Shown piece by piece: positions 785 through 35,808 of a stretch of DNA of 64,000 nucleotides. The DNA is from a virus. Both the position numbers and the translations under genes were made by a program. The stretch's first letter is position 1. The number at the start of each line of letters is the position of its first letter. The stretch spans positions 1 through 64,000 of the IMG/VR virus record IMGVR_UViG_3300047510_000533; one strand, written 5' to 3'. The notes under the pieces are model-generated. The model was not told the origin of the DNA. It did not search any database and was given only the letters and a program-made list of their open reading frames with translations.

Positions 785-791
785 TATTTAT
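785..791 (-). promoter_or_regulatory. T4-type late promoter (ATAAATA)
   Basis: Minus-strand GATAAATAC lies 21 bp upstream of the ATG at 763 and overlaps the stop codon of the M23 peptidase gene (TAA at 788-790). It matches the T4 late -10 element TATAAATA in seven of eight positions. Confidence 0.7.
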
Positions 792-2212
792 CGTTTAATG
801 CTTCCGCCGGTCAGTAGATTTGCTCCTTTAACATCTAGAGCATTTTTAGCAGTACCGTCTTTATTTTTAAAGGTTTTTCCAGGTTTGTTTTTATATACCG
901 CACCTACTCCTACACTGGCAGCACTAGTAGCGCCAGCAGTGGCAGTTTCGTCAAACTTTTCAATACCGCGGCTCTGTACCCCACCTTTTTTACGTTTAGC
1001 AGCCAATTCTTCTAAACCGTGACGTACTTGTTCTAAGTTCTGTTCTAAACCCATAAACATTCCGCCTTTGGCTAATTTAGTAATCTGTAACCACATGCCT
1101 AAATCATCGCTTTCGGCCATCTGTGCTAGTTCTTGTAACTGCTTACGTGTTTGTAAAATACGTCCTTTTAGTGTCATAGGATTGGCTTTTTCGTGTCCAT
1201 GTATCATAGGATCCATAGGATCGTCTGTGGCAGCAATAGGTGTTTCTTTAACAGATTGTTGAGATTTTTTATCTTTAGGATAAGCAGTATCTCCGTATTT
1301 AACTTTATCATTAACTGGACTTTGTCCCTTAAATGCCGCTTTAATTTTTTCTAACGTTCCTGAACTATTGTCTTGTTGTTCGTGGGTAAGTTGATCAGCA
1401 ACAGTTTCTTGCATTTGTCCCATTTGTACGGCTTGAGCAGCCAATCTAGGAGGAATACCCTGTTTAACTAATTCTGCTTGAACTTGTTGTTCGCTCATAC
1501 CTTTGTCAAGTAAGGCTTTAGCACGTTTTGCCAGAGCCATCATATCTATTGCGCCACCTTCTGCTAGAGGATCTAATTGTCTTCCGCTGGCATATTTTTC
1601 CCAGTGTAAATGAGGCCCTGTACTAAATCCAGTACTACCAACATCACCGACACGCTCTCCTTTTTTAACTTCGTCGCCAGGTTTAACTGCTATTCTAGAC
1701 AAATGCATAAATTTATGTTTTATTCCAGCAGTTGTAACTAGTTCAACTGTATTACCTGCCGAGCCCAACATTCCGGCAAATGTTATTTTGCCATCGTTAG
1801 TGGCAACTACAGGAGTACCTGTAGGTGCGGCAATGTCAACTCCAGGATGGGGTATCCTATTACCTTTCGGACCAGTAACAATTCTACCATAGGGGCCGCT
1901 AATTCTGCCCTTAGTTGGCATTATTTCGCTGGAACTAGATGCTGTATCTTTACTAGTAGCGTCTTTGCTAGTAGTGTCTTTGCTAGTAGTGGTAGCATCT
2001 TTACCGGGACTATCTTTACTAGGTTCTTTATCTCCAAGTGAGATTCCGCTGGTATCTGCTGTATATTTTTTAATAGCGGCTCGAGTAAATGGTCCCATAA
2101 AACCGTCTGCTCCGGTAGGACCTAAATTATAGCCTTTAGATATTAAAAATTTCTGTATTTTTTGAGTTGCTAAATTAAATAAACCTTCATTAATTATATC
2201 TAGTACTTTCAT
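788..2212 (-). CDS. M23 (LytM) peptidase with peptidoglycan-binding domain
   Basis: A 474-aa protein. Residues 1-10 (MKVLDIINEG) form a leader with INE-G, a fit to the T4 prohead protease rule. Residues 14-52 resemble a peptidoglycan-binding domain. A Ser/Thr/Lys/Asp linker (61-97) leads to an M23 metalloendopeptidase domain (about 100-220) with the zinc motif H122xxxD126, H170, and H201-L-H203. M23 enzymes cut peptide cross-bridges in peptidoglycan. The C-terminal half (about 220-474) is not recognised. It overlaps the upstream gene by ATGA. Because it is in a late virion block rather than the lysis cassette, I infer a virion-borne wall-opening enzyme, or a capsid-packaged one if the leader works. 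Confidence 0.88.
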   Translation of the reverse strand: MKVLDIINEGLFNLATQKIQKFLISKGYNLGPTGADGFMGPFTRAAIKKYTADTSGISLGDKEPSKDSPGKDATTTSKDTTSKDATSKDTASSSSEIMPTKGRISGPYGRIVTGPKGNRIPHPGVDIAAPTGTPVVATNDGKITFAGMLGSAGNTVELVTTAGIKHKFMHLSRIAVKPGDEVKKGERVGDVGSTGFSTGPHLHWEKYASGRQLDPLAEGGAIDMMALAKRAKALLDKGMSEQQVQAELVKQGIPPRLAAQAVQMGQMQETVADQLTHEQQDNSSGTLEKIKAAFKGQSPVNDKVKYGDTAYPKDKKSQQSVKETPIAATDDPMDPMIHGHEKANPMTLKGRILQTRKQLQELAQMAESDDLGMWLQITKLAKGGMFMGLEQNLEQVRHGLEELAAKRKKGGVQSRGIEKFDETATAGATSAASVGVGAVYKNKPGKTFKNKDGTAKNALDVKGANLLTGGSIKR

Positions 2213-3903
2213 TTCTTTTTTCCTTGACGCATGTTAATCTGCCAGTGTGCTAGTTGTTTCTTACGTGGACTAGCACTGTCACTGCTACGTATCTTCTTTA
2301 ACTGTGCTATACTCATACCTTTACTAATGCCGTGACGCTTACTATCTCCCTTATCTTGAGGATTTTTTCCATCAGCAAAGTTTTCATCTACATTATATGT
2401 TGGATCAACTTTTTGACGTCTCATACCCTTAGGCTGTTTAGGATCAACAGGATCTATATCTGTAGTGGTAAGTCCAGTTTTCATCAAAGCATCGATGTAT
2501 TTGTGTTCTTCTTCCTCGCTGCCAAACGAGATAATTGTGCTCGGAGGTCCTTTTCCAAAATCGTGTTTACCTAACCCTTTAAGATTGCTAATGTGCATTC
2601 CTAATTTGTACCAGTCATAGACATCACTGACATCTACTTTTACAGTACCTTTTGGCATTGTAGGTTTAAATTCTGGACCATACGGAGGATCATTTACATG
2701 ACGATCTTCTTCTTTTTTCTTTCCTTGACAATGAGCACGTTGACTAAATCCTTTAGGATTGTTACAGTCAATACTACGTTTATATTTGTCACTCCATCCT
2801 TCATTAAATTGATCAGGGTGTTTTCTTCCCCACCAACGTAATAATACACCTGCTAGAGCATTTGCTTCATTTTCATCTGGACTACCAGTTTCACCATTAA
2901 GTTCACGTGCTTCGTTTTGTTTGCGGTGTACTAGTTCGTGCGCCAGTGTACGCATGATGTCCATTTGATGACGATCTTTAACGGTAACAACAATGTTCTG
3001 TGTTTCTGGATCAAAATAACCTAACGCACTAGTCCCACTATCGGAAACTAGTTTAATACGTGGAGCCTGCTCTATTTCTAATAGTTTGATTGCCCATAGA
3101 GCAAATTCTTTAATACGTTGTTTTTTATCAGAAGTCCATGCTTCGTTGATTTGTTCTCCAACACCACCACCGTCGCCACTACCACCTTCTCCAGATGATG
3201 CTCCAATAGCACTGCTGTACCCAGTATTCACTCCGTACAGTCCATAAGGACCGGGCCCCCATGCCGCACCATATACACGTTTAGATTTACGCTTTTTCTT
3301 TTTACGTTCTTCTAATGCCGATACATCACCGTTTCCTGTAATGTGATAGGCATCAAATGTTACATCGGGATATTCTTGTTCTAATTCTTTGAATACACGC
3401 AGGTTAGTCATGGAATCGTCGTAAAGACTTACTTGATTAAATTTTCCAGTATCTAAATAACGTCTTACCCATACTGCTTTCTTTTCAGCAGGACCCCCCT
3501 TGCCAGGCAAATTGCCTGCTCGGTGTACATGAATCTTGCTCATGTCTATGCCGTGATCGGCAAATGTCTGTAGGAAAGTTTCTTTATCGTCAAAGTCTGC
3601 TCGGGCAGTTAACATGATAACCTTGCCGCGAGTATGATCTAATATTGTTTTTAATTCGTCAAGCATAGGACCAATTGGCTCACTTTCTTGACGAAACTTT
3701 TCAGCATTGCGGAACTCGCCAAAATCGTAGTCTTCGCCGTCTTGAAGTTCGTAGTTATTAAATTCTTGGTTAGTTAGAGAGCGCACAACTTCGCCATCTT
3801 TAACAACATTAATTTTAGCAGTCGTGTGGAACAGTGTATCGTCTATATCAAATATAGTTAAGATACCTTTTGGCCTATCTTTGACAAAATCACTTGCTCT
3901 CAT
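2209..3903 (-). CDS. HAD-phosphatase / zinc metallopeptidase fusion protein
   Basis: A 564-aa multidomain protein. Residues 15-190 are HAD-like: D19-I-D21-D-T23 (DxDxT nucleophile motif), MLTAR at 97-101, and YDDS at 161-164. A Gly-rich linker (about 212-250) follows, then a domain with H322-E-L-V-H326 and a downstream Glu (344 or 346), the HExxH...E pattern of zinc peptidases. Residues 375-395 carry the Cys-containing SIDCNNPKGFSQRAHC motif. The tail has an RHGISKGMS...KKQLAHWQINMR motif that I recognise from marine T4-like virion proteins. INE-A at 252-255, between the two enzymatic domains, fits the prohead protease rule, so the product may be split. Substrates are unknown. Confidence 0.8.
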   Translation of the reverse strand: MRASDFVKDRPKGILTIFDIDDTLFHTTAKINVVKDGEVVRSLTNQEFNNYELQDGEDYDFGEFRNAEKFRQESEPIGPMLDELKTILDHTRGKVIMLTARADFDDKETFLQTFADHGIDMSKIHVHRAGNLPGKGGPAEKKAVWVRRYLDTGKFNQVSLYDDSMTNLRVFKELEQEYPDVTFDAYHITGNGDVSALEERKKKKRKSKRVYGAAWGPGPYGLYGVNTGYSSAIGASSGEGGSGDGGGVGEQINEAWTSDKKQRIKEFALWAIKLLEIEQAPRIKLVSDSGTSALGYFDPETQNIVVTVKDRHQMDIMRTLAHELVHRKQNEARELNGETGSPDENEANALAGVLLRWWGRKHPDQFNEGWSDKYKRSIDCNNPKGFSQRAHCQGKKKEEDRHVNDPPYGPEFKPTMPKGTVKVDVSDVYDWYKLGMHISNLKGLGKHDFGKGPPSTIISFGSEEEEHKYIDALMKTGLTTTDIDPVDPKQPKGMRRQKVDPTYNVDENFADGKNPQDKGDSKRHGISKGMSIAQLKKIRSSDSASPRKKQLAHWQINMRQGKKK

Positions 3904-4105
3904 TTTTTCCTACCGGTGGTTCACCTGTTAAGTACGGTTTACTAAACCATAATTGGAACCACTCATCTGTTCCAGGTTTAATGTTATGCTTCTTTTCTAA
4001 TTCTCTTTTTTCTGTGCCTGTAATACTTATGTTACTGCCGCCGTAAGGCTGGTAACCTTTAAATTCTGAAATGCCTGCTAAACGTTTAAGATCTTCTATG
4101 TTCAT
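3890..4105 (-). CDS. Small conserved virion-block protein
   Basis: A 71-aa protein overlapping its downstream neighbour by 14 bp and its upstream neighbour by 20 bp, so it is translated within the block. It begins MNIEDLKRLAGISE, an amphipathic leader ending in ISE, and ends with a conserved-looking WFQLWFSKPYLTGEPP segment that I associate with T4-like marine phages. There are no cysteines, no transmembrane segment and no known catalytic motif. Function unknown; co-location suggests the same virion-associated role as its neighbours. Confidence 0.7.
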   Translation of the reverse strand: MNIEDLKRLAGISEFKGYQPYGGSNISITGTEKRELEKKHNIKPGTDEWFQLWFSKPYLTGEPPVGKNESK

Positions 4106-5222
4106 TATCTTTATTTCTATGCTGTCTATATGGGTTTATAAAATCTTCTTCCCATGTACCTTCTTTAACTGCCCAGGCAAAATCTATAATGCGCCCTAGG
4201 CCGCCACCTATTTCACCAAACAAATCATCAAGATGTAACACTTCGTCAAATGTAGCACCAGTACCTTCCATTATTAAACTAACAATCCAGTCGTTATCGC
4301 TGTTATCAATGGCTTCGTCGTATTTGGACCAAAGTTTGGGATTCTCTACAATGCGTTCGCCTAATCTACCTAACTTTTTAACTAAAGAAAATTCACGATC
4401 CATGGGCTCGGCGTCTTCCGTCAAACCATATTTTTTCATTAGAGCATATATTGGGCTACCTGGCGCAGGATTTTTTCCTGACTTTAAAAAAGCATTGATC
4501 ATTCCCAATTCATGTTTCTTACGCTCAGCATCTTCTCCAATGTCGTCATTGGATTTTTTCTGTTTGACTTCGCCCTTCTTTTCAGAACGTTTGGCTTCTT
4601 TTTCTGCTTTTGCTCTGTCTCTTTCTTGTTGTTTTCTTAATTTTTCTTCTTCGGCCTGCATGTAAGGTAACATATATTCTCGAACAAGATCAAAATAAGG
4701 ACGACCAGCAACTGTAGTATCTGCGGGTACACCGGAAAATTTTTCAAAGTCTTGAGGATTGTTTTCTTTAACTGCTTTGCGAACTAGACTTGCTTCACTC
4801 TTACGATCTGCTTTTTCCCATTCTATTCCGGCAAATTTATAATAACCGTGAGGACCTTCAATGCCATTTTGTTTTTGTATCATTGGTACGTAAATGTTTT
4901 TATCCTCAGGATCTGTAACTATACGTAAAATTGTGTTTTCACTGTGTTCCTTAAAAACCATAACAGCCAATGTAAACCAACTCTGTTCCGCAACTAAATG
5001 TCCTTCTATTTCAGGATACACAGTTTTCATTGCTTCAATTTTAATTTCAAAAGGTAATGGATCTTTAGGACCTTCGGTACTTTGGTTAGTGCCAATATAC
5101 CAATGGGGAAACTTAGAAGCAACTATCCAAGCATCTCGATGACCATAGTGAGGAGGATTAAACCTACCAAACATAATAGCAACATCATTGTTTTTATTTT
5201 CAAATAATTGTCTTAATCTCAT
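4086..5222 (-). CDS. NMNAT/cytidylyltransferase-fold nucleotidyltransferase
   Basis: A 378-aa protein. Residues 13-200 have the HIGH-superfamily nucleotidyltransferase signature G19-R-F-N-P-P-H-Y-G-H28, with SEASLVR (142-148) in the place of the ISSTxxR motif. This family transfers a nucleotidyl group to a phosphorylated acceptor (NAD, CDP-alcohol or sugar synthesis); the acceptor is not evident here. Residues 190-225 are a Lys/Glu-rich coiled coil, followed by a C-terminal region of about 150 aa with no recognised motif. The N-terminus MRLRQLFEN is very like those of the next two enzyme genes and ends in LFE, a possible prohead protease site. The enzymatic fold is well supported; the leader function is inferred. 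Confidence 0.82.
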   Translation of the reverse strand: MRLRQLFENKNNDVAIMFGRFNPPHYGHRDAWIVASKFPHWYIGTNQSTEGPKDPLPFEIKIEAMKTVYPEIEGHLVAEQSWFTLAVMVFKEHSENTILRIVTDPEDKNIYVPMIQKQNGIEGPHGYYKFAGIEWEKADRKSEASLVRKAVKENNPQDFEKFSGVPADTTVAGRPYFDLVREYMLPYMQAEEEKLRKQQERDRAKAEKEAKRSEKKGEVKQKKSNDDIGEDAERKKHELGMINAFLKSGKNPAPGSPIYALMKKYGLTEDAEPMDREFSLVKKLGRLGERIVENPKLWSKYDEAIDNSDNDWIVSLIMEGTGATFDEVLHLDDLFGEIGGGLGRIIDFAWAVKEGTWEEDFINPYRQHRNKDNEHRRS

Positions 5223-5223
5223 A

Positions 5224-6369
5224 TTATTCCCCAGGGGTCCATCGTTTTCTAGGTACTAGTTTTACATTACCAAATCTTTTATCACTGCCAGCATAGCGAA
5301 CGCGACCTTCTCCTTCGGTGTCCCAAATATCCCCTTGTTCTCCTTCAATCTGATCGATAATATCATCTTTCATATCTTGTATCATTTTCACCAGTGTAAA
5401 TATTGCGCTAAGGGAGCCGTTGTATTGGGTGTTAAGAGTTTGTATTTTTTGTTGTTTAGGTTCACTGACTTTGCTAGTAGTGAGCCAATTAAAAAACATC
5501 TGTTCACTAATATTATCTAATTGTTTGGCTTTAGCAGTTTGATTTACAAACTTATATAAGATTTCTTTTAAATCACTAAGTCCTGCTTGCGGTTGTAGGA
5601 AGCCGTCAATTTGTTTGCCATGTTGTTTTAGATATTTTTCTACATCTGTAACAGCATTGGTATCTACTGATATTGGTTTCTTATTGTATATTGGACCTAA
5701 TACAATCAAGTTGCCTGTTTTATTAAATTCTTCAAAACTATCTTTAGGTTTTTGTTCTGAGTCTGGCGCACCAAAGCGATCAAACTCAGCATGTCCAACA
5801 ACCATAACTTCTGCTTTGGCAATTTTCTTTCCTAATTCACTGTTCTTACGAACATGATAGCAGGTTTTTGATTTTGGATTAGGACAAAAAGTATAAACAC
5901 CTTCTGAATCTAATTGTGGCGGATCTAAAAATAATCCGTCAGCATAAACGAATCCTACAAAATCTTTCGGTGTGGCTTGATCAAACAGCGGATATAAACT
6001 AGAAAACTTTTCAGCAAATTGATCTCTCTGAGCTTTTTCTTCAGGAGTTTTAGGATTTCCACTTTGATTAGAAATAAAATCTTTAACTTCTTCTGGGCTA
6101 GTACTTTTAGCACCTCGAGCCCAACCATTGTGTCCTGCTAAGATAAGAGGACCACCTTTGGTTTCACGTCCCCAATAAATTTGAGGATTACCGTCCCACT
6201 TCATGCGAATACTTTCAGCACCTTGTTGGGTAGCAAAGTCTTTGATGTGCGATAATGCTTCCATGGTGCCCTCGCTACCATAAAAGAATACTAGATCTTC
6301 TAGGTGATTAAATGTCCGACCTAATTGTTTAGTGGCGGTTGATTCTCTAAATAGTTCTCTAAGCCTCAT
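5224..6369 (-). CDS. Ligase-like KxDG protein of T4-like phages, function unknown
   Basis: A 381-aa protein of a family common in T4-like marine phages and usually left unnamed. Residues 57-60 are KWDG within RMKWDGNPQIYWGR, matching the KxDG lysine motif of covalent nucleotidyltransferases (DNA/RNA ligases, capping enzymes). FVYADGLFL (139-147) and SEGVYTF (155-161) could be motifs III and IV; these are weaker. The C-terminal third is helical and charged. The N-terminus MRLRELFRES resembles the leaders of neighbouring genes. The start shares one base with the stop of the upstream Pol-beta-like gene (TAATG, 6367-6371), so the two are translationally coupled. Ligase activity is a hypothesis. 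Confidence 0.7.
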   Translation of the reverse strand: MRLRELFRESTATKQLGRTFNHLEDLVFFYGSEGTMEALSHIKDFATQQGAESIRMKWDGNPQIYWGRETKGGPLILAGHNGWARGAKSTSPEEVKDFISNQSGNPKTPEEKAQRDQFAEKFSSLYPLFDQATPKDFVGFVYADGLFLDPPQLDSEGVYTFCPNPKSKTCYHVRKNSELGKKIAKAEVMVVGHAEFDRFGAPDSEQKPKDSFEEFNKTGNLIVLGPIYNKKPISVDTNAVTDVEKYLKQHGKQIDGFLQPQAGLSDLKEILYKFVNQTAKAKQLDNISEQMFFNWLTTSKVSEPKQQKIQTLNTQYNGSLSAIFTLVKMIQDMKDDIIDQIEGEQGDIWDTEGEGRVRYAGSDKRFGNVKLVPRKRWTPGE

Positions 6370-7208
6370 TACGTATTCCTTGATTGCTTAGGATTTTTAC
6401 GATCTTTCCACCGTTTGTCAGTAGAACACCAGTAACGTCCGTGATTGCCTTCAATGAGGCCTCTCATGTATGAAAACCAATCCACTGTGTTTAATTGGTT
6501 AACATCTTCTTTTTTAATAGTATCAACTTTCCAATTTGGGTCTTCTTCTGCTCTAGCCAACAATGCCTCTGATTCGTCTTGCGGTAAAGCAGTAAGTACA
6601 CTTTCTACACTGCTTAGGTCTTCAGCATTGCTATTGTCACCGATAAGAAGTTTTGCAATTTCGTCAAGATCGTCTGTGACAAAATCTCCCTTTTTACCTT
6701 CTGCGTTTCTGCTAAACAATCCCTGCCACGCAGACCACATGTAACCTTTGCTTTTAGCCAATAGGGCTAGAATTAATTGTTTATGAACTCCCTTGTATGG
6801 ACTGTCGTTGGGAATACGATGTGTATGAAACTTAGAAATTTTTTCAGCATTAGGAGTTACCATAATATCAACTTGGTGGAATTCGTCGCCTACTGGCACT
6901 CGAACGTGAACATTAATTCCACTCTGTGTTGTATCTAATCCTTTTCCGGAAATGTAATCTTTTAATGCTCGACGACCTTCTTTGGCATCTTTGGCTTTAA
7001 AATATTCTAATACAGATTTTTCATCTACAATGACATCCATGTCTCCACTTTGTTTACCTGGAGTTGGAGTGGCAGCACTGCCTACAGGAATAATAGTAAT
7101 ACCTGTTCCTTCTAAAGCACCATTAACAACATTGGTAATTTTAGGAACATTTTTATGATCAAAAGGTGTTACATCTGGAAAGGCATTACCGCCTTCTACT
7201 AAAATCAT
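6369..7208 (-). CDS. Pol-beta superfamily nucleotidyltransferase
   Basis: A 279-aa protein with the Pol-beta nucleotidyltransferase signature: G43-S44, then D56-M-D58 after a 12-residue loop (GSAATPTPGKQSGDMDV), and a third acidic residue D114 in HQVDIMV. The three carboxylates would bind two metals. Family members add nucleotides to DNA, RNA, proteins or antibiotics, so the substrate is open. The C-terminal 150 aa are helical and probably bind substrate. MILVEG at the N-terminus fits the prohead protease rule (LVE before G). It overlaps its upstream neighbour by 4 bp and its downstream neighbour by one base. Confidence 0.8.
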   Translation of the reverse strand: MILVEGGNAFPDVTPFDHKNVPKITNVVNGALEGTGITIIPVGSAATPTPGKQSGDMDVIVDEKSVLEYFKAKDAKEGRRALKDYISGKGLDTTQSGINVHVRVPVGDEFHQVDIMVTPNAEKISKFHTHRIPNDSPYKGVHKQLILALLAKSKGYMWSAWQGLFSRNAEGKKGDFVTDDLDEIAKLLIGDNSNAEDLSSVESVLTALPQDESEALLARAEEDPNWKVDTIKKEDVNQLNTVDWFSYMRGLIEGNHGRYWCSTDKRWKDRKNPKQSRNT

Positions 7209-7549
7209 TTATCACTCCTATCGTAGGTGCCTTTTTCTATTCTTTCTTTTTCATTATGAAACATCTTTTCGGCTAATTCTTTGATTTCAGCATCAGAAAA
7301 AATATCTTTAGGATTTTTTCTAATTTTAAATTTTTTACAGTATGAATCAATTCCTTTTTTAATACAACCGTGAAAGTGATCTTGTTGACAACCTTGTCCA
7401 CTTTTTAATTTATGTTTCATATCCGATATAGCAGGATATAGAATTTTTCTATAAAACAAAGGATCGTTATTCATAAAGAACTGTAAGTCGTCAACTACAT
7501 TAACGTCTTTAAGTTCATCAATTTTATCTGAAATTTCTTTTAATAGCAT
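7205..7549 (-). CDS. Conserved small T4-like phage protein
   Basis: Start chosen at ATG 7547-7549 (MLLKEISDKIDEL), one base after the stop of the upstream gene; a longer frame to 7621 would lie inside that gene. The 114-aa product has a conserved-looking FFMNNDPLFYRKILYP segment and a Cys/His cluster (GQGCQQDHFHGC, then SYC), which might bind a metal. The C-terminus is highly charged and helical. I have seen this type of protein in T4-like marine phages without a known function. It sits within the late virion block. Confidence 0.72.
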   Translation of the reverse strand: MLLKEISDKIDELKDVNVVDDLQFFMNNDPLFYRKILYPAISDMKHKLKSGQGCQQDHFHGCIKKGIDSYCKKFKIRKNPKDIFSDAEIKELAEKMFHNEKERIEKGTYDRSDK

Positions 7550-7550
7550 T

Positions 7551-7907
7551 TTACCATTTCCTACATGACCAGTATCTTGCTTTAGTGCGTGGACCCGGAT
7601 TGTCACAATTATGACGAGCACGGAAACTGCGTCTACGAGCAGGATTAGATTTTTTGATTTTCATATTTGGGTCGCCAAAATTTACTTTGACGATGTTACC
7701 CCGAGGATTACGAACATAGACTTTGAACTTTTTAACATCGCCCTGCATGGGTTTTCCAAGAGGTACTTTTCGTCCGCGATACTCTGCTTCTTCCAATGTT
7801 TCTTCTACATTGCCGTAAAGCAGATAAAAATCATCACCGTGGTAGGTTTCTTCTAGCCAATTTGTTACGGCACTTAGAGATTCAAATAGTTCTTTAAAGG
7901 TTTTCAT
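7551..7907 (-). CDS. Capsid-targeting-leader protein, first gene of virion enzyme block
   Basis: A 118-aa protein and the first gene behind the late promoter at 7931-7937. Its N-terminus MKTFKELFES is strikingly like the T4 internal-protein leader MKTYQEFIAE, and LFE-S fits the gp21 cleavage rule. The rest contains KVYVRNPRGNIVKVNFGDPN, NPARRRSFRARHNCD and a C-terminal TKARYWSCRKW, a basic Cys-containing module that is common in marine T4-like phages. I infer a protein that enters the prohead, is trimmed, and may bind nucleic acid through its Arg-rich C-terminal half. The RBS is weak (GAG). Function unproven. Confidence 0.78.
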   Translation of the reverse strand: MKTFKELFESLSAVTNWLEETYHGDDFYLLYGNVEETLEEAEYRGRKVPLGKPMQGDVKKFKVYVRNPRGNIVKVNFGDPNMKIKKSNPARRRSFRARHNCDNPGPRTKARYWSCRKW

Positions 7908-7930
7908 AGCGTAAACACTCGTTTATAGAG

Positions 7931-7937
7931 TATTTAT
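7931..7937 (-). promoter_or_regulatory. T4-type late promoter for the virion enzyme block
   Basis: Minus-strand CATAAATACTC starts 30 bp upstream of the ATG at 7907. No other late promoter was seen inside the next 7 kb until 785-791, so it may drive the whole run of overlapping genes down to 788. Confidence 0.7.
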
Positions 7938-7954
7938 GCTATTTTACACGACTG

Positions 7955-8605
7955 TTAAATTTCACTGTGGGTCACTAATTCTTCAACTTTTACTACTTTA
8001 TTGCCTAAATAAAGGCGGCAAATGCTGAGAGTTTTAGCATCTGCTACATAAATGTACCCACCGTATCTATAAGTACTTGCGTTTATTTTTATCTTAGACA
8101 TCTTTTCAGCCCACTCTCTAAATACTGATTCGTCATTGAGCGGCTTTAAAGTAACCTTGTATTTGTGGGTATAGTCTTTTCTAATTATTATCTTAGGTCT
8201 ACTAAGCAGTAATTCTTTAGTGGTTACGTTTTCTGGTTTAGAAATTTCTCGCAGTGTAATATTGTTAATGGAAGAAATTTTATCTACAATTTCTTCATTG
8301 TTAACATATACTCCTAGTATTGAACCTTCTACTCTCAGCGTATAATCATCTACTGTAGTTAGTAATTCAATTATTTTACCAGCAACTATAACGTCACCAA
8401 CAACAGCATATTTTTTGCTCCAAGTAAAGCCAACCCTAATCTTTCCTTCCATATCTGAGTCAAACTTATTACTCAACTCAGTCAAGGATCGTTGGGTATC
8501 GACTAGTTTTTTTCCTCTAAAAAAGGTTGCTACAGGCGTCAGTATTGACACCTTGTACGCATACCTATCAAAGAATAATTTATTAGTTTTCTTCAAGAAT
8601 GGCAT
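7955..8605 (-). CDS. Unknown protein following clpA
   Basis: A 216-aa protein whose start (MPFLKKTNKLFFDRY) lies 23 bp inside the end of clpA, so it should be co-translated with it. Predicted beta-rich N-terminal half and mixed C-terminal half; no signal peptide, transmembrane helix or known motif. The C-terminal segment (YGGYIYVADAKTLSICRLYLG) looks like a compact conserved domain. It is the last gene of the dnaJ-def-clpA operon. A role as a ClpA adaptor or substrate is only suggested by position. Confidence 0.65.
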   Translation of the reverse strand: MPFLKKTNKLFFDRYAYKVSILTPVATFFRGKKLVDTQRSLTELSNKFDSDMEGKIRVGFTWSKKYAVVGDVIVAGKIIELLTTVDDYTLRVEGSILGVYVNNEEIVDKISSINNITLREISKPENVTTKELLLSRPKIIIRKDYTHKYKVTLKPLNDESVFREWAEKMSKIKINASTYRYGGYIYVADAKTLSICRLYLGNKVVKVEELVTHSEI

Positions 8606-10820
8606 TTTCTTGTGCTTTTACAATTATTTCGTTATCAGCAACATCGATTGACACCTTGCCGCCATCCTTAAGTCCGCCAAACAACATTAGTTTAGACAGT
8701 GGACGTTTAATGTCTTTATCAATAACACGTTGTAAAGGACGAGCACCCATCTTGGGATCAAAACCTTTTTCAACAAGGTAGTCAATGGCTTCATTACTAA
8801 GTGTAATCTTAATGCCTTTGTCTTTGACCTGTGTTTTTAACTCAACTAAGAACTTACCAACAATTTTAATCATTGTTTCTTTGCTGAGTTTACCAAAGGT
8901 AATTATGCCGTCTAAACGATTGCGGAACTCTGGAGCAAAGAATTTCTTAAGTTCTTTATCTTCGTACCCGCTGTCTTGTGGACCAAAACCAATTGCGTTT
9001 CTATCTGCCTCGGCAGCACCCAAGTTTGTAGTCATAATCAACACAACATTACGAGCATCTGCTTCTTTACCGTTGCTACCAGTAACCTTACCGTTGTCCA
9101 TTAATTGTAGAAGGATAGTAGAAACATCGGGATGTGACTTTTCGACTTCGTCTAGTAATAATACACAATGTGGATGTTCTTGTAGTTTAGTAATCAGTAG
9201 GCCAGCATTTTCTTCAAAGCCAACATAACCTGGAGGCGATCCAATTAACTTACTAACACTGTGTTTCTCTTGATATTCACTCATATCAAAGCGGATCATA
9301 GGAATGCCTAATTGTTTAGCCAACTGTTTGGCAGTTTCTGTTTTACCTGTACCAGTTGGGCCCATGAATACAAAACTACCTACGGGTTTGTTTTCACTCT
9401 TTAATCCTGCTTGTGCTACAAGAATCTTATCGACAATTTCTGTAATTGCTTCATCTTGTCCGTAAACCTCTCCTTTGAGATTCTTTTCAAGATTAACAAG
9501 ATTTGAACTTTCTTTTTCTTTGATAGTGTCCTCTGGAAGATTTACCATCTTACTAAGTTCAAATTGAATACCAGGTACATCAACAATTTTATCTTCTTTA
9601 GAATTAATATTAAATCGCGAGCAAGCAACATCAATAAGGTCAATTGCTTTATCGGGTAATTTTTTATCTGTCATATAACGCACAGACAATTTAACTGCGG
9701 CCTCAATGGCTTCGTCGGTGATAGTAGCACCGTGATGTTTTTCGTAATATTTTTTAACACCTTTGAGAATATCTACAGCCATTTCTGGAGTAGGCTCATC
9801 AACAGTAACACGTTGGAATCGGCGCATTAGGGCACGATCCTTTTCGAAGTACTTGCGATATTCTTCCCATGTTGTACTGGCAACTACTTTAATATTGCCC
9901 TTGCTTAGAGCAGGCTTCATCATGTTAGCAAGGTCGTTGCTATTTTGACTGCCACCAGCACCCGCACCGTTGATCATGTGTGCTTCGTCAATAAACAATA
10001 CAGTCTTGCCTCTGCTTTGTAAGGCTTTAAGAACAAGTTTAAATCTTTCTTCAAAGTCTCCGCGATACTTACTACCAGCCAACATACTGCTGATATCAAG
10101 ATTAAAAACAGTATATTCTTTTAAGAAATTTGGAACATGGTCGTGAATAATGTTATAGGCCAAACCTTCTGCGATGGCAGTTTTACCAACTCCGGGATCG
10201 CCTACAAGCAGAATGTTGTTTTTATTTCTACGTCCTAGTCCTAGCGCAATTTGCTCTAATTCTTCAACTCGTCCAATTACTGGATCAATCTTATGCTTCT
10301 TGACCTGTTCATTAAGGTTGGTAGTAAATGATTTTAAAGCCTTTTCACTTTGAGCATCAGTGACCTGTTCTTCTTCCTCGTCGATCTCGCTGTTGACAAA
10401 GTCAGCAAACTTTTCACGATCAACACCACCTTTGGTAATATAGTAAACAGCAAAACTGCGCTTTTCACTCAAGGCACTTAGGAATACGTCTACAAGTTCG
10501 ATACTTTGACGGCCACTGAACAATACCTGTGTAAACGCACGATTAAGTACACGCTCAACTGTTTGTGTTTTTTTAGGTTTAAATCCTTTTGGAATAGGAT
10601 CAACTTTAATTTCGTCTAGTTTATTTTTGAGATAGTGTTCTAAATTTGTTTTGATATAGTCACAGTCTGCTCCATAGTTAGATAGCAGATCAAAAAACTT
10701 TTCTTCGCAAAGCATAGCGAATACGAGATGTTCTAAAGTTACATACTCGTGACCCAGTTTCTTACAATCTGAAACTGCTTTTTCAAAAACTATTTGTAAT
10801 TGATCACTTGGTTCTACCAT
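8583..10820 (-). CDS. clpA: ClpA-like AAA+ unfoldase
   Basis: A 745-aa protein close to the length of bacterial ClpA. A Clp N domain (1-145) is followed by D1 with Walker A GDPGVGKT (207-214) and Walker B VLFIDEA (274-280), and D2 with Walker A GPTGTGKT (487-494) and Walker B VLLLDE (553-558). There is no long middle coiled coil, which argues against ClpB. IGF at 610-612 sits where ClpA/ClpX carry the IGL/IGF loop that docks onto ClpP. The phage also encodes ClpP (46951-47544), so a phage ClpAP machine is plausible. It overlaps def by 17 bp and the downstream gene by 23 bp. Confidence 0.95.
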   Translation of the reverse strand: MVEPSDQLQIVFEKAVSDCKKLGHEYVTLEHLVFAMLCEEKFFDLLSNYGADCDYIKTNLEHYLKNKLDEIKVDPIPKGFKPKKTQTVERVLNRAFTQVLFSGRQSIELVDVFLSALSEKRSFAVYYITKGGVDREKFADFVNSEIDEEEEQVTDAQSEKALKSFTTNLNEQVKKHKIDPVIGRVEELEQIALGLGRRNKNNILLVGDPGVGKTAIAEGLAYNIIHDHVPNFLKEYTVFNLDISSMLAGSKYRGDFEERFKLVLKALQSRGKTVLFIDEAHMINGAGAGGSQNSNDLANMMKPALSKGNIKVVASTTWEEYRKYFEKDRALMRRFQRVTVDEPTPEMAVDILKGVKKYYEKHHGATITDEAIEAAVKLSVRYMTDKKLPDKAIDLIDVACSRFNINSKEDKIVDVPGIQFELSKMVNLPEDTIKEKESSNLVNLEKNLKGEVYGQDEAITEIVDKILVAQAGLKSENKPVGSFVFMGPTGTGKTETAKQLAKQLGIPMIRFDMSEYQEKHSVSKLIGSPPGYVGFEENAGLLITKLQEHPHCVLLLDEVEKSHPDVSTILLQLMDNGKVTGSNGKEADARNVVLIMTTNLGAAEADRNAIGFGPQDSGYEDKELKKFFAPEFRNRLDGIITFGKLSKETMIKIVGKFLVELKTQVKDKGIKITLSNEAIDYLVEKGFDPKMGARPLQRVIDKDIKRPLSKLMLFGGLKDGGKVSIDVADNEIIVKAQENAILEEN

Positions 10821-11310
10821 TTAATTTCCTTTGTTTTTTAACAGCAAGATCTAATTTTAATTTGCTTACTTTTTTAGTAAACGTAATTCCGTCTAAATGA
10901 TCTATCTCATGTTGGACACACTTCGCATCGTATCCTGATAGTGTCATTATACACTCTTTATTGTCTGTGTCAAGATATTTTACAGTCACTGAGTTTGGTC
11001 TGTTTACTTTAATAAAAAGATTTGGAAAACTAAGACAGCCCTCTTCGTCAACCGTTTCTATTTCAGCATTAACTACTTCTGGGTTAAACATAGCAAATGC
11101 CGCTTGACCTTTTGGTTTAATTACAATAACTCGACGATTAAATCCCACTTGATTAGCACTAATGCCTATGCCAAACTCGTCTTCCATTATGGCAGTCATT
11201 ACTCTTTCAATTTCTTTAGGATCTAAGTCGCAGTTAAAATCAAACGGTTCTAATTTTGTGTAAAGTATTGGATCTGGATCTATTCTAAGTTGAAACTCAC
11301 TAATTAGCAT
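10804..11310 (-). CDS. def: Peptide deformylase
   Basis: A 168-aa full-length peptide deformylase, which removes the formyl group from nascent N-termini at the ribosome. The three motifs are intact: GIGISANQ (47-54), EGCLS (90-94, with metal ligand Cys92), and H134-E-I-D-H138. Unlike many phage deformylases, which are shortened, it keeps a basic C-terminal tail ([11 protein letters not shown]) that could contact the ribosome. It overlaps dnaJ upstream by 11 bp and clpA downstream by 17 bp. Phage deformylases are known from marine cyanophages. Confidence 0.95.
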
Positions 11311-12115
11311 ACCGTTTAGATAATTCCTCTACAATTAATTTGTCTTCGGTGAAAATATTCTTTGGAATTGATACTTTGATCTGTAAAAATAAATGACCAC
11401 GACGTACATCATTAAATCCGGGTAACCCGTATCCGTCGCATTTAATCATTTGATCTGGTTGAATTCCTGCCGGTATGTTAACATCCAATTGACGATTATC
11501 GATAGTGTTGACTCTTATAGTTTTTCCTAATACTGCGTCAAAGGCGGTAATTTTATATTCCATATATAAATCTTTACCGTTTCTTGTAAAAATATGATGC
11601 GGAATTTCTATAATTTGAGCTATAAGGTCGCCCCTAGGGATCCCAGGTATACTATCGTCTCCCATACCTCTAAATTTTATAGTGTCTCCAGTTACTACTC
11701 CGGGGGGAATGTTTAGATTAATAGTTTCGTCTCGACCACTCATTAATCTAATGTTCCCAACTACTTCTTTACCTTTAAAAATTTCTTCTAGAGTCATCTC
11801 TACACGAATGTTTATACTACGATTTCTATTGTTTCGTGCTTGCCTAAATCCATTAAATGGACCGCCACTGAACATAGCGCCAAATATGTCATCCATGTTT
11901 CCAGTATGGAACGCAAACTGTGGTTGTGGATTATCGTACTGAGAACGTTTTTGGTCGTCTCCAAGTACAGCATAAGCCTCTTGAATTTTTTGGAAATAGG
12001 AATTATCACCACCTCGGTCTGGATGATGTTTCATTGCTAATTTTCTATAGGCTTTCTTAATGTCATCCTGGGACGCATTTCGAGGTACACCTAAAATTTG
12101 ATAATAATCTGTCAT
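11300..12115 (-). CDS. dnaJ: DnaJ-type co-chaperone without zinc finger (CbpA-like)
   Basis: A 271-aa J-domain protein: J domain at 1-65 with H31-P32-D33, a Gly/Phe-rich stretch (about 66-95), and the two beta-barrel substrate-binding domains (about 100-268). The CxxCxGxG zinc-finger repeats are absent, so it is a class B (CbpA-like) Hsp40. It would stimulate host DnaK. It is the first gene of a four-gene operon with deformylase and ClpA. Its promoter is merged with a terminator hairpin (12125-12168), and the predicted 5' leader is only about 18 nt and has no clear ribosome binding site. Confidence 0.93.
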
Positions 12116-26544: not shown

Positions 26545-29500
26545 TTAGAATCTTCCTACAACAACTTCAATAACGCCTTCATTGAAATCATCTTTATCTT
26601 GTACTGCTTTTCCAACGATTGTACCTGACTCAGGTGAGTTATTAACTGTAGCATATCCTTGTTTAGCACTGGTCACTAGTATATCACCTTTGCTGACTTT
26701 TCCTACAACCTTACAAGGTACGCGACCTGTTAAGCCTAGCGCAACTACATTTTCACCTGTTAAGTTAGCGTTCATCAAATGCGCTGGATTAGTAGATACT
26801 ACACCTGCTACTCTAGTATCACCTTTAGTGCTAGTTACAGTAACTTCGTTAGCGCCACCAAATACTAACACAGTTCCTGGTTCGTACTGCGCATCTGCTT
26901 GATAGTTTTCTGCTAAGTCAGCATAACGAGCACTGGTAGCAGTACCGTTATAGATACCACTGTTGTCAATCCATGATACATCTGAACCGCCTCTGCGGAA
27001 ACGTACAACTTCGGTAGAATCATTACCAACGTTAACGTACCAACGATTGCTGTGATATTCAAGTTTACCAGTGCCAGCGGCCGCATCGCCGGTCCAAGTA
27101 GTAGTGTTCTGTCTAATACTAGAACTAGCGTTCATAGTTAACTGACTAGTAAAAGTCAAAGAACCTATTGATGATCCACTTAAGAATGTTGCTACCTGTT
27201 GACCCGATGCTGTACGATAGAAGTTATCACCCTTCTTAGTCATTACACCAGTAACTGCGGCAGCAGTAGATGTATCATCAGAAGAATTAAAATATGTAGC
27301 ATTGCTGTATCTAGCGTTGGTATCACCGTTGCTGTCACGCAATACAATTCTATCACCAGTTGCGGATGTTGTGGCAGCAATAGTTGCCGAGTTGGCCTGA
27401 CTAGTAATTGTAGCCGCATTTCCTGAAATACTACCTTGAATAGTATTTGTAACAGTTAAGTCTAAAGTACTAATTCGACCACTTACGCCAACACCGCCAG
27501 TAACTACTAGCGTACCACTTGTAGTATTTGTTGAAGCGGCATTCTGTGTAAACGTTACAGCGTTATTAGCAGTTAATGTTGTAAATGCTCCACTACCTCT
27601 AGTAGTACCACCGATGTTTATGTTGTTAATAGTACCAGTTGACGCAGGTGCTATAGTTACAGAACCTGTGCCAGTTGGACTTAATGTAACATTAGCATTA
27701 GCAGGACTAAATGTAGCGGCCGCTGCCGATGTAATAGCATTGACACTTAGAGTACCTGTGGTAGTTATTGTTGAAGTTGAATCAGTATTACCTGATGCTT
27801 GTAAGAATTTAACACCACCAGGAGTAAACATATCTAAGGTAGTACCAGTTGTGTCTAAAGTTTTATAACCGTCAACCTCTAACTGTGCCACGTCAACAAC
27901 ACCTGATCCGTCTGATTTGATTAAACTGCTGGCTTGACCTGTTGTAGAAATGTTTATAGTGCTGTATGTATTAGGAGTTATCGCAGTCATTATTAATGCG
28001 CGACCTTCACCGCCTACAGAGCCTGGCGCAAAACTAGCATTTTTAATACCATCACCGTCAGTGACTACCTGTCCAGGAGTAATTTCGTATGGAGTTCTTG
28101 ATGATCCGCTTCTATTACCTAAAACTGATCCAGTGCCTATCTGTTGAATGTTATCTAACCTAACACCGTCAGCAATGGCTGTTATACTAGTAGTACTCAC
28201 AGTTTGGCTGGTACTTACAGTATAAGTTCCTGCTCCGCCTGATCCAGTACCAAACGCAATAATTCTAGTACCGCCAATGACACTGGTACCTGATATTATC
28301 TGTCCAATAGCAATAGTACCAATGCTTGGAGCACTGGCAGTTAATGTAGTACCGCTGATACTACCTGAAAATACTGTGCTAGATGTTGTTTGTAATCTTA
28401 CAAAACCATCTATGGCTGTAAACTGTGTCCAATCAAATGCTGATAAACCTTTATTTGCCTGTGTTATGCCACTGGCACTTGAGCGTACTGTGGCATCGCT
28501 CATAGCCAATTTACTTTGTTCTATACCAGCACTGGCATTTACATCAATGTTAAGTATGGCTCCAGGTTTAATATTCAACGCTAAGTTCTTACCACTTAGG
28601 CTTGTTTGTATGTCGCCTGTGGTAATTGTTTCAGCGTTGACCCATTTAGTTCCATTATAGACTAATAAGTTATTAAGAGTTCTTGCTGGACTAGTTGAAG
28701 TGTCTACACGTAGATTAGATAACTCTTGAACATCAACATAAGATCTAGTAGCCGCATCGCTGTCTGTTGTAGGATCTTGTAAGTTAGCAATTCTGAAACC
28801 GCCCATGTTTAATGGATCTGGACCAGTAAACGCTAGAATACCTGATCGATCCATGTACCCTGGACCAATTAATTGACTAGAGTCAAGTACCACATTGGTT
28901 CTATCCATGCCAAGACGTCTGTCAATATAACCCTGAACAGCCGCCTCAGTTGGTAGCGCATCGTTGGCACCGTCAGTAAATCTGTCATCGTTTGAGAATT
29001 CACTGACTGTAACACCGCGCTTAAATCCTAAGCCGTCTAAGTTTGATAACGCAATACTTGCCGCAAATGTTACACGACCAGTACCTTGGTCAACTGTAAA
29101 GAATCGACCTACACGGAAAATACCGTCTTGGTCTGTGGTTACATAGAAACAGCGTCCTCTTGTACGTTCTTGAACTTCACGTGCTTGGTTAGGCTCTTTA
29201 GGAGCACCATAGATCTTAGCAGGATAGTTTGTACTGTTGTATCCACCAGTACCGATATCTAAGAAGTCATGACCAGTAACACGACATGTTGAAATTCTAA
29301 CAATAATTTCTACAGGTTCTGTAGATGCTAAACCAGCACGTAATGTTGGAGGCTCAGCAATGTCTAAGTTAGTTAAAGGATCAACTGGAGTGTTAATACC
29401 ACTTGGCGTAGTTCCTGATAGACTTTTTTCAGTTACATCTGCTAATCTAATAATAGCATAACCGGCTAACAATCCTAAGTCTTGATAACTTAAGATTCTA

Positions 29501-32500
29501 TGTACCTTTCCGTCCCAGGCCATGATCATTTCGCCTGAGTTTAGTCTGTCCTCTACTGATACCTCATTAACTCGAGCAACTGCCAGTGAAGTATCACCGA
29601 TGCTGTATCCTAATGTTTTTGCCGGGTCAGTTGGATCAACATTACTAGTATACTCTCCTTCGACTAATAATTTAATATAATCGTAGGTTGTATCAAATCC
29701 TAGAACAGATTCGTCAAGCGCCAAATCTTCATTTAATGGACCTTTATTACCGTAGGCCAATACTCGATAAACAATAGCATCAGTAGCGTTTGGATCTCCC
29801 ACAAATGTTAATGCTGTACTTGGGCGAACTGGATTAGTATCATCAATTTCGTAGTATTTGAAGTTTTGATTACCACGTATAACAATTGGTTGATCATCGA
29901 TTAAGTCTACTGCTAAACCGTTGGCAGCAGTGTCGTTGTTTCCGCCTGTGTTAATATTAAGTCTTAGAATGTTTCCTCTACCCCAAATAGTTGGTGTACC
30001 ACCGGTTACCCAGTTACCAGGATTTGTTGGGTATTCTAATGTCACGGAAGTAGTAGTTGATGCTGTGGCTCTATAAGTTCCGTTAAAAGCTCCCACAGTT
30101 GAACCAATCACTGTATAGACATCTAATCTTGGAGTATATGGTACTGCGGTAAATGAATATGTTACATAATATTTTCCGCCTGTTGGTCCTGTTTTTACAG
30201 GAGTACCTGTGATACTACTAGGTAAAGTGCTGGATACATCAGTAACAGATGCTACTTCATAACGAGCAATACCGTTTCCAATAACAGTATCAACAGCAAT
30301 ACTAAATCCACCTCCGGTGCCACCAATGTTAGAAGCACTAACACTGATAGAATCTGTATCTTTGTATCTAAATCCTCCGCTAACTAGGGCAACTGTAGTA
30401 ACAGCGCCGCCGGAAACAACAATGTTAACTAATGCGCCAGTGCCTGTTCCGCCTGTAACAGGAACGTTAATATAGGTACCATTGGTATATCCACTGCCGC
30501 CAATTAATGTTGATTGATCTAATTCAGTAATAACTCCCGAACCGTGATTAATTTCAACTTCGGACACGTTGTAAGGAGCATAATCATGTTGATAAAAATA
30601 AACTGCTAGATCGTCTTTGTTGTTGTCTGTAGAATATAAATCTTTTTTGTAAACACGAGCCACTTGGATCATATTATCAGATAAGAAAGCCTTGTCTGGA
30701 ACTTCCAACGGATCTGAACCTTCCGAAATAATACCAAACTCGCCGTGTGCGTTAGAACCGTTCAATGAACGAATCTGTCCACCGTTGTTGGCATAGTAAG
30801 CAGTCCAGCAGTAGTAACTGAAAACAGAAACAGTTTCAATTAAACCGATGTTTGTAGCAATCAATCCATAACCAAGGTCATTGATCTGCGTAAAGTCATT
30901 TGAACACATACTGGTGTTACCGGCACTTAATAACATAATTGAACTGATATATTCAATCTTAGTAGTTCCGCCACCGAATGATCCTGGATCGCTTGGGTAA
31001 CGGAATGTCATAGTATTAACAGTTGATGCCACGCACTCTACTGAATCACTGTTATAGTCAGTGTTTAGATTACCATAAATCCTATATCGAGTCTTAGTTA
31101 GAGGATTCGGAGTATGCGGAGTAATACTTAATACGACATCCCATGAACCGTCACCAACTCCTGAGTCTGCTTTACTGACAAAACCTGTGACACTAAATTC
31201 TAAAGGATTAGTAATAGGTGTTGTGTCAGATAATGTTAGTCTATAGACTGGATAAACAATAGGTTTGGCTCCAGCCAATACGCTGTCGTAATCAACATTA
31301 GGATCTTGTATAACTTCTACAATAAGATCCATTAAGTTACCTAATTGAACAATTTGACTAGTTCCATCTAAATCAGCATCAAATGTTTGTGTAATTGGAT
31401 TAGTTACACTGTTTGCTTCTTGGAAATTAATTAATGGTGCTTCTTGTCTAAGAACCTGCTGAGCAACATATTTGGCATAGTTAATAGCATCAACGGTTTC
31501 CTGTAACTGTTCGTTAATAACAACTCTTGAACTTACCGAGCCAACAAAATATCTCTGAGCCGCACGTATGGTCAAGTATGTTCCACCGTAGAGCAAATCA
31601 GATGATACGTTTGATACAATAAATCCAACGTCACGACGACAAATTTCTTCGTTATAGACAAAATCGTTTCCGTAGTTGTCGTTAATAAATGTTGTAACCT
31701 GTGTACCTAACGAAGTTTTATCTGTTTCTAAAGTGTTTCTTAATGTTACCAAAGTAGAGCTTACCCAAGTAGTACTTGGCTCAATGGTACTAGGAATAGA
31801 TCCAAGACCATCATCAATGATATCTATAATTTCTTGTATTCTTGTTCCAGCAAATGCTGACGCACTAACAGAGCCCGCGGCACCTCTAATTTGTGGTACA
31901 ATAACTTGTAATGGACTTATAGTTGAATCAATGGCAATCTGTTCAACTAGTGATTTTAAATATCCATAGGTTGCTAATGTAGCGGCCTTTTCGCTAAGAG
32001 CAACTTGTAATGTTGCGCCTACATAATAAGCAACACCGGCAATTAATGTCTGTAAATTACCTTCATATGTTAAATCATATTGCAAGGCATCCAAAATATA
32101 ATCAATATCTCGACGACATAGTTCTGGATCATATGAAAGACCAGGATAGTTATTTGTGATATACTGTATTAATTCTGCTTTGATAAATGATCTATTTTGT
32201 TCAATTAAATTACGAGCATTTTGATATCCTAAAGAATAACCAGTTGGACTAGGAATAACATAAGTTGGAACTTCGTCTTCACCATAGGTAATAATATCTA
32301 TGATAGTATTCATGTTATTAGTCACAGACGATAATGCTGTAGTATTGCTACTTACTAATGCTGTAACTAGTGTCTTGAGATAATTAAAGGCATCAATAGT
32401 AGCGGCCTTTTGACGTCCAACTGCGACGCTGGCATTACCTCGATAATATGATCTTCCAGCAACTATAGAAGCAAAGTTACTGCCAAACATTAGATCGTAG

Positions 32501-35500: not shown

Positions 35501-35808
35501 AAACGAGATGCTAATGTATCAATTCTAATAGAATTAGCGTCTTGTGTAATAGCAATAGTGCCGCTGGGGCTAGTAAATGCTTTAAACACTAAACTAGTTC
35601 CCAGTGAGTTAACCACCGGAACTTTGTTACCTTGTCCTGTTAACGTATCTGGAGTATCACTAAGGTCGGTAAATTTTAAGAAACCACCTTGACCAAAAAC
35701 AGCGTAGAGTTCTTGGAAGTTTTCGTTCGTTTTTCTAAACGCTTCGCGAATACTATCGCCTGTACCATCATTACCGGTTACGCCGATGTCAACTATTTTA
35801 CGTGCCAT
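26545..35808 (-). CDS. Giant 3087-aa baseplate/fibre protein with six helical repeats
   Basis: Start chosen at ATG 35806-35808 ([18 protein letters not shown]) with TGGAG upstream. After the [14 protein letters not shown] leader and a beta-rich region with a pectate-lyase-like stretch, residues about 605-1450 hold six copies of a roughly 140-aa helical unit, each with IKAExIxYI, a C-(A/R/Q)-R-D motif, YDLxxGxN and AGxxYY. Beta-rich, Thr/Gly-rich fibre segments follow. The C-terminal 110 residues ([24 protein letters not shown] to VVVGRF) resemble fibre C-terminal chaperone-type domains. This is a known but unnamed class in T4-like marine phages. Confidence 0.88.

Follow-up and report, generated by a model that had tools for sequence, protein, structure and literature searches.

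A putative late operon of leader-bearing capsid cargo proteins in an uncultured T4-like phage lineage

Results

Leader peptides in a putative late operon

We examined a 64,000-base stretch of viral DNA, hereafter the window (bases 1-64000 of the 66,227-base IMG/VR viral contig IMGVR_UViG_3300047510_000533), in which eight open reading frames (ORFs) lie on the minus strand from 7907 down to 788 (Table 1). A sequence-only reading of the window had described five leader-bearing genes among eight in a late operon, and all of the ORFs and N-termini that it quoted were verified on this strand. The analyses below indicate that these genes very probably constitute a late operon of capsid cargo from an uncultured T4-like lineage, whose products would be targeted by their leaders, cut by the prohead protease gp21 (including at the junctions of fused proteins), packed, and injected. 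No DNA-level match to cultured phages was found.

The leader ends LFE↓S, LVE↓G and INE↓G and the internal INE↓A (arrows mark predicted cuts, between residues P1 and P1′) had been quoted correctly as fits to the gp21 cut rule, which in its strict form we defined as [LI]xE[AGS] within residues 4-20. We counted this rule on non-redundant orthologues, using shuffled N-terminal residues as a control; relatives were sampled by two IMG/VR scans, which gave 225 and 63. With families named by the left coordinate of the window ORF, the rule was present in 66% of the 4086 family (n = 50), 60% of the 5224 family (n = 58), 86% of the 6369 family (n = 42), and 67% of the 7551 family (n = 9), compared to 3-6% in the same four families after shuffling; flanking families showed it at 0-10%, save two at 20% (14311 and 15050). 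MLLKE and MNIEDLKRLAGISE had been called weaker, and the strict rule was indeed rare in their families (10% for 7205; 0% for 3890, where P1′ is F or Y), as it was in the 2209 family (22% of 9). Distant orthologues of the 7205 protein carry MRIRELLE↓G and MKIQDLFE↓N, and the MRASDFVKD of 2209 has D where E is expected, a position at which relatives show INE↓R, LLE↓A or LFE↓G.

We also used a looser regular expression for the leader, which leaves the residue after E unspecified. A genome-wide search for the leader pattern had been proposed as a check; within the window, this expression matched four of the nine genes of the operon region and none of 68 elsewhere (p = 9e-5), a count that is partly circular because these same leaders were the source of the expression. 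Counted by distance in genes from DUF6267, matches numbered 183 of 474 at 0 to +7 and 9 of 606 at -15 to -2 (upstream). In three relatives, matches in the operon and head regions versus the rest of the contig were 7/28 versus 1/158 (G003), 7/31 versus 0/106 (G004), and 3/29 versus 4/259 (G001); of the four outliers in G001, three fall at 21-36 kb, in the midst of genes resembling late structural genes by sequence. The residue after the leader E was A, S or G in 56% of cases against a background of 25%, and the expression also retrieved T4 IPII and IPIII, though not IPI. The shuffles, the residue after E, and the recovery of IPII and IPIII are independent of this circularity.

Predicted cut motifs at the junctions of fused proteins

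The operon proteins are fused in many combinations, and stand-alone leader proteins of one contig are internal modules elsewhere. We aligned the mature part of each leader protein (after the leader E) with internal stretches of other proteins, using a query that left out the leader and its E and so placed no constraint on the residues before the junction. This yielded 99 junctions, each with unrelated upstream sequence, and non-leader proteins served as controls. The motif φ-x-E, with a hydrophobic residue (φ) at P3 and E at P1, fell exactly at the aligned cut position in 44 of the 99 junctions versus 5 of 195 controls (p = 3e-19; 5 of 240 in a second control), and within three residues of it in 71. 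E occupied P1 in 55% of junctions, compared to 3-16% at other upstream offsets and about 7% at random positions, and P3 was hydrophobic in 56%, compared to 11-26% at other offsets. A third scan, comprising new contigs with previously seen contigs and near-identical proteins removed, replicated this pattern (42 of 97 exact versus 6 of 169 controls; p = 8e-16).

One alternative is that the leaders target the prohead core while the junction φ-x-E is a remnant of fusion and the modules stay uncut; the fused neighbours carry leaders in their stand-alone forms, so a remnant would begin as φ-x-E. The targeting part of the leader has nevertheless been lost (leader-like upstream sequence at only 4 of the 99 junctions) while φ-x-E persists, and its frequency hardly drops with divergence (17 of 43 junctions, or 40%, below 60% identity; 27 of 56, or 48%, above), and we therefore consider the remnant explanation unlikely. 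Within the window, φ-x-E stands at every one of the seven module boundaries detected, at most one residue from the aligned position, and no φ-x-E was found between residues 10 and 215 of the 788-2212 product, which hold its peptidoglycan-binding and M23 domains. Judged by these motifs, the two largest of the window proteins resemble polyproteins and hold seven predicted cut sites in total, a point absent from the sequence-only reading.

Head genes and reuse of the gp23 cut site

Three large relatives that share the operon (G001, G003 and G004) carry gp21 (Peptidase_S77) and gp23, and the head genes of the relatives follow the T4 order of portal, small proteins, gp21, gp22 and gp23. Their gp22 starts MLDALK(Q/S)LFE↓N, resembling the window leader MRLRQLFE↓N. 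The gp23 precursor cut region reads YLSE↓SATAGATSAGNVAT in G003 and G004 and YLSE↓SASTGATSAGNVAT in G001, comparable to SFLTE↓A in T4. The mature gp23 N-terminus SATAGATSAGN (YLSE↓SATAGATSAGN) recurs in about 30 operon proteins in all. When we searched for the motif around [ST]A[ST]AGATSA-N, without requiring a preceding E, we recovered gp23 and about 20 distinct operon proteins, with E directly before the motif in every one; in the replication set the same was true of nine out of nine. This reuse suggests either that the protease reads beyond P1′ or that the arm has its own role in the head.

The N-terminal motif could instead dock proteins to another assembly, such as the baseplate, the tail, or a Clp/DnaJ chaperone, and be neither a head-targeting nor a protease signal, given that the operon comes after Clp ATPase, peptide deformylase and DnaJ genes and that many of the cargo proteins are murein hydrolases, which are tail-located in other phages. 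However, A, S and G are enriched after E in accordance with the gp21 rule, the cut-site sequence of gp23 recurs in operon proteins, and a docking peptide gives no reason for φ-x-E at internal junctions; we regard docking elsewhere as very unlikely.

Small proteins of three cyanophages (S-CREM2 gp160, S-SCSM1 gp97 and S-SM1 SSM1_197) share ...GPxAGYDP with the mature gp23 N-terminus, and published mass spectrometry places the first two in virions. It is possible that these are gp23-arm mimics like those of the lineage described here.

Range of cargo and virion proteomes of cultured relatives

The 229 leader proteins form at least 36 clusters that are unrelated to one another. In a profile search of 78 cargo proteins, 16 were cytidylyltransferases; other families were DUF6267, peptidoglycan-binding proteins, GH19, lysozyme, cell-wall hydrolases, ParB-N, amidoligase, zeta-toxin-like proteins, dCMP deaminase and 5′-nucleotidase, and none of the 78 matched PADLOC defence-system families. 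Polymerase-like, ligase-like and phosphatase enzymes carried in the same capsid would be well suited to repairing the incoming genome, and the M23 and other murein enzymes could be entry aids or lysis enzymes held in the head. On balance we favour, with some reserve, a scheme in which T4-like phages produce capsid cargo as polyproteins: a single leader would bring a chain of enzyme and structural modules into the prohead, where the prohead protease would free each module at φ-x-E linkers, some of them copies of the gp23 maturation site. The family X polymerase-like, ligase-like and HAD phosphatase members of the set could together make up a kit for DNA end or gap repair that travels with the genome.

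Homologues of the cytidylyltransferase/NMNAT-like protein are listed as virion proteins in passages of the reports on S-CREM2 (PMC10665884), S-SZBM1 (PMC9146016), S-SM1 (PMC3037559) and S-SCSM1 (PMC9602691). All four begin with leaders: MKNFSSFLTE↓A in S-CREM2 gp154, MRFRQFIIE↓A in S-SZBM1_140, MKKFSAFLNE↓A in S-SM1 SSM1_190, and MKSFLQFLKE↓A in S-SCSM1_91. S-SM1 and S-SZBM1 additionally encode, next to the cytidylyltransferase, a DUF6267-like protein that shares the KWDG motif, and further non-tail virion enzymes of S-CREM2 have leader-like N-termini (S-adenosylmethionine (SAM) hydrolase, MKDFDSFLEE; kinase, MKRFDAFLTE). The passages covered of the S-CREM2 and S-SCSM1 papers make no mention of a leader. 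In jumbo phage CBB, the sole Rak2-like phage checked, the related enzyme CBB_73 is leaderless and absent from the virion table.

These observations also bear on whether the operon simply holds ordinary late genes for lysis, repair and accessory functions, whose products stay unpackaged and have a helical N-terminus that is similar by coincidence. M23, lysozyme and GH19 are typical lysis proteins, and the virion content of this lineage is predicted from its genes. Against this, the leader is common to at least 36 unrelated clusters, which are concentrated in one operon, and leader-bearing homologues occur in the virions of four cyanophages, making coincidence the least probable of the alternatives considered and, in our view, highly improbable.

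Other leader-like sequences came to light in cultured phages. A Cas9-like nuclease detected in S-CREM2 virions, gp12 (OR473000 7704-10313), shows the leader-like LRFASFMAE↓A at residues 17-26 and may be carried in the head. The C-terminus of the virion protein S-SCSM1 gp93, RTFKEFLEYIE, resembles the leader and is perhaps a C-terminal targeting signal. A comparable leader-rich block of genes occurs in Methylophilales phage Melnitz (Melnitz-3, L184; 82-1131 and 12203-19789), where the products include a RimK-like ATP-grasp protein (MTQKFSQFITE↓E) as well as a cytidylyltransferase (MKKFSEIIE↓A).

Operon proteins, promoter and neighbouring genes

The MILVE↓G protein (6369-7208) is predicted from its structural model to fold like a family X DNA polymerase: Foldseek matched it to Pol lambda/beta (E 4e-8; template modelling score about 0.45-0.5), and in the GS...DxD motif of the family G43, D56 and D58 are invariant and S44 nearly so. 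Residues 1-6 form an unfolded, low-confidence N-terminal end in the AlphaFold2 model. Some orthologues start M-GG(N/K)VF, at the predicted mature residue (L099 9998, L038 5805, L037 4194 and L048 661); a missed upstream start was considered for these and rejected, as none of the four has an in-frame leader upstream.

The DUF6267 protein may, we hypothesise from its motifs, be ligase-like (covalent nucleotidyltransferase superfamily); K57-x-D-G, E354-G-x-V and K370 are invariant or nearly so across the family. Searches against PDB sequences and folds gave no significant match, ligases appearing only among the non-significant fold matches. Residues 1-17 of its AlphaFold2 model have a predicted local distance difference test score below 50, and the leader again forms the low-confidence N-terminal end. 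The putative polyprotein at 2209-3903 comprises a HAD phosphatase-like module, a Gly/Lys-rich linker, a DUF6782 metallopeptidase-like module and further modules; the HAD/polynucleotide kinase-like and DUF6782 assignments are weak or under curated cut-offs. Among the enzymes proposed as cargo in the earlier reading, the M23 peptidase (E 2e-30) and the two nucleotidyltransferase-like proteins have domain or fold matches, while the HAD and metallopeptidase matches are weak.

Table 1 Features of the operon, with predicted cut sites (↓) and neighbouring genes.
Feature	Coordinates	Strand	Leader or site	Evidence or remark
T4-type late-promoter-like element	7930..7937	-	ATAAATAC	23 nucleotides before the operon's first start codon
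118-residue protein (phrog_7595)	7551..7907	-	MKTFKELFE↓S (7881-7907)	strict cut rule in 67% of 9 orthologues
114-residue protein	7205..7549	-	MLLKE (weak)	10% of orthologues strict
Family X DNA polymerase-like nucleotidyltransferase (predicted)	6369..7208	-	MILVE↓G (7194-7208), 5 residues	86% of 42 orthologues strict
DUF6267 protein	5224..6369	-	MRLRELFRE↓S (6343-6369)	DUF6267 E 1e-14; ligase-like KxDG, EGxV and K motifs
Cytidylyltransferase/NMNAT-like protein	4086..5222	-	MRLRQLFE↓N (5199-5222)	phrog_3041 E 7e-15
71-residue protein	3890..4105	-	MNIEDLKRLAGISE↓F (doubtful leader)	conserved N-terminus; 0% strict, 67% relaxed
Putative cargo polyprotein	2209..3903	-	MRASDFVKD (degenerate)	domain matches and module boundaries
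Predicted inter-module cut, residue 199	3307..3315	-	LEE↓R	stand-alone relative MRAKDFTNE↓GRKKKK
Predicted inter-module cut, residue 254	3142..3150	-	INE↓A	stand-alone relative MKVLQILKE↓SSPPDL
Predicted inter-module cut, residue 368	2800..2808	-	FNE↓G	stand-alone relative MRAFEIITE↓KWSEKYKRS
Predicted inter-module cut, residue 507	2383..2391	-	VDE↓N	stand-alone relative MRAKEIFE↓NFADGKHP
Putative cargo polyprotein	788..2212	-	MKVLDIINE↓G (2186-2212)	peptidoglycan-binding-like and M23 peptidase (E 2e-30), then three more modules
Predicted cut, residue 218, just past M23 domain	1559..1567	-	LAE↓G	relative MKIDDLLE↓GVINMMDLAKKAK; E one residue off
Predicted cut, residue 323	1244..1252	-	VKE↓T	relative MKINELLTE↓APIDFDPNEPM; E one residue off
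Predicted cut, residue 422	947..955	-	FDE↓T, then gp23-like segment TATAGATSAASVG	relative MKIREILE↓TASAGATSAAN
Clp ATPase, peptide deformylase-like and DnaJ-like genes	8583-12115			directly upstream of the operon
3087-residue ORF	26545-35808			tail-fibre-like by appearance

The late promoter that had been placed ahead of the operon corresponds to a promoter-like element before its first start codon, although the window count of ATAAATAC is no higher than chance (five against 5.2 expected). The five copies nevertheless all share the strand of the genes, and in four cases a start codon follows 7-23 nucleotides later; besides the copy at 7930-7937, one at 784-791 lies ahead of the next gene, which extends past the end of the contig. 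The genes directly upstream of the operon recur with it in relatives; the Clp ATPase was identified by domain search and the other two were read from the sequence, and these neighbours may unfold or prepare the cargo. Elsewhere, giant ORFs fill much of the contig.

Discussion

Capsid targeting with cleavage by the prohead protease is the reading that best fits the conservation of the cut rule among orthologues, the confinement of leaders to the operon and head regions, the presence of gp21 and gp23 in relatives, the φ-x-E at junctions, the reuse of the gp23 site, and the homologues in cyanophage virions. A leader of 5-10 residues, M-[K/R]-x-x-[E/D]-[L/F/I]-[L/F]-x-E, would start each cargo protein or fused chain and dock it to the prohead scaffold core, as with T4 internal proteins; gp21 would then cut after φ-x-E and free the enzyme inside the head. 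In fused chains gp21 would also cut the φ-x-E at the junctions, yielding several mature proteins per targeting leader, and the freed enzymes would be packed alongside the DNA and pass into the cell when infection begins, ready at once. Leader-dependent core docking, gp21 cleavage after φ-x-E, and entry with the DNA follow the T4 model (PMC9026906). For the present lineage we infer the cleavage, the packaging, and the roles of the enzymes in the host, and injection is proposed by analogy with T4.

Several observations weigh against this interpretation. The lineage is known from genes alone, and neither gp21 nor gp23 was found on the 66-kb window contig, which is a fragment. M23-type murein-degrading cargo has an ordinary alternative role in lysis. 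Several leaders fail the strict rule (FRE↓S, LFE↓N, MLLKE and VKD↓R), P1′ of the cyanophage leaders is not confined to A, G or S, and 28 of the 99 junctions have no φ-x-E within three residues. In S-CREM2, five of six motif carriers are virion proteins (p = 0.003), but the motif was picked after viewing that phage, and it shows no overall enrichment among the virion proteins of S-SCSM1 (one of five carriers, p = 0.64), although the NMNAT of S-SCSM1 itself fits. Because of this last result, motif counting alone is an unreliable predictor of virion proteins in S-SCSM1, and we therefore used orthologue conservation and junction tests. Lastly, passages by the authors of the S-CREM2 study (PMC10665884), and likewise of the S-SCSM1 study (PMC9602691), allow that the enzymes may be co-purified contaminants.

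The principle of targeting is already known from T4, in which IPI, IPII and IPIII, as in this lineage, have a short N-terminal leader ending in φ-x-E before A, G or S and are processed by gp21; the start of T4 gp24, MAKINELLRE↓S, is also close to the MKINELLTE↓A of this lineage. The T4 internal proteins are small single proteins, whereas most of the cargo in this lineage consists of multi-domain enzymes from many families, and fusions with internal cut sites are frequent. A closer parallel is the T4 ADP-ribosyltransferase Alt, which is packaged and injected and which gp21 cuts at ITE-6, giving a 6-residue leader, and near the C-terminus at LTE-619 (PMC5694885). Alt is thus a precedent both for a leader as short as the 5-residue MILVE and for cargo proteins that are cut more than once, although it is one protein with end propeptides rather than a chain of separate modules. 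The virion enzymes of Kyanoviridae cyanophages (SAM hydrolase, kinase and cytidylyltransferase in S-CREM2; NMNAT in S-SCSM1) include the same cytidylyltransferase/NMNAT family, carry the leader, and have been detected in virions. The ejection proteins of phiKZ-like phages resemble the present system in that propeptides of capsid cargo, including enzymes (virion RNA polymerase subunits), are cut after x-x-E. Their protease specificity differs (A-x-E in SPN3US gp245, S/A/G-x-E in phiKZ), and their propeptides are long, without a short leader common to many cargo families.

What appears new is the use of a targeting leader for many enzyme families in uncultured T4-like phages, together with a polyprotein format that places protease sites where modules join, and the recurrence of the gp23 cut site in operon proteins. 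We found no published report of the range of leader-tagged enzymes, the polyprotein format or gp23-site reuse in a search that covered literature outside subscription papers. What was an anonymous operon, present in about 200 uncultured viral contigs, becomes a list of candidate capsid-delivered enzymes that can be tested, and the leaders could serve for loading proteins into phage capsids.

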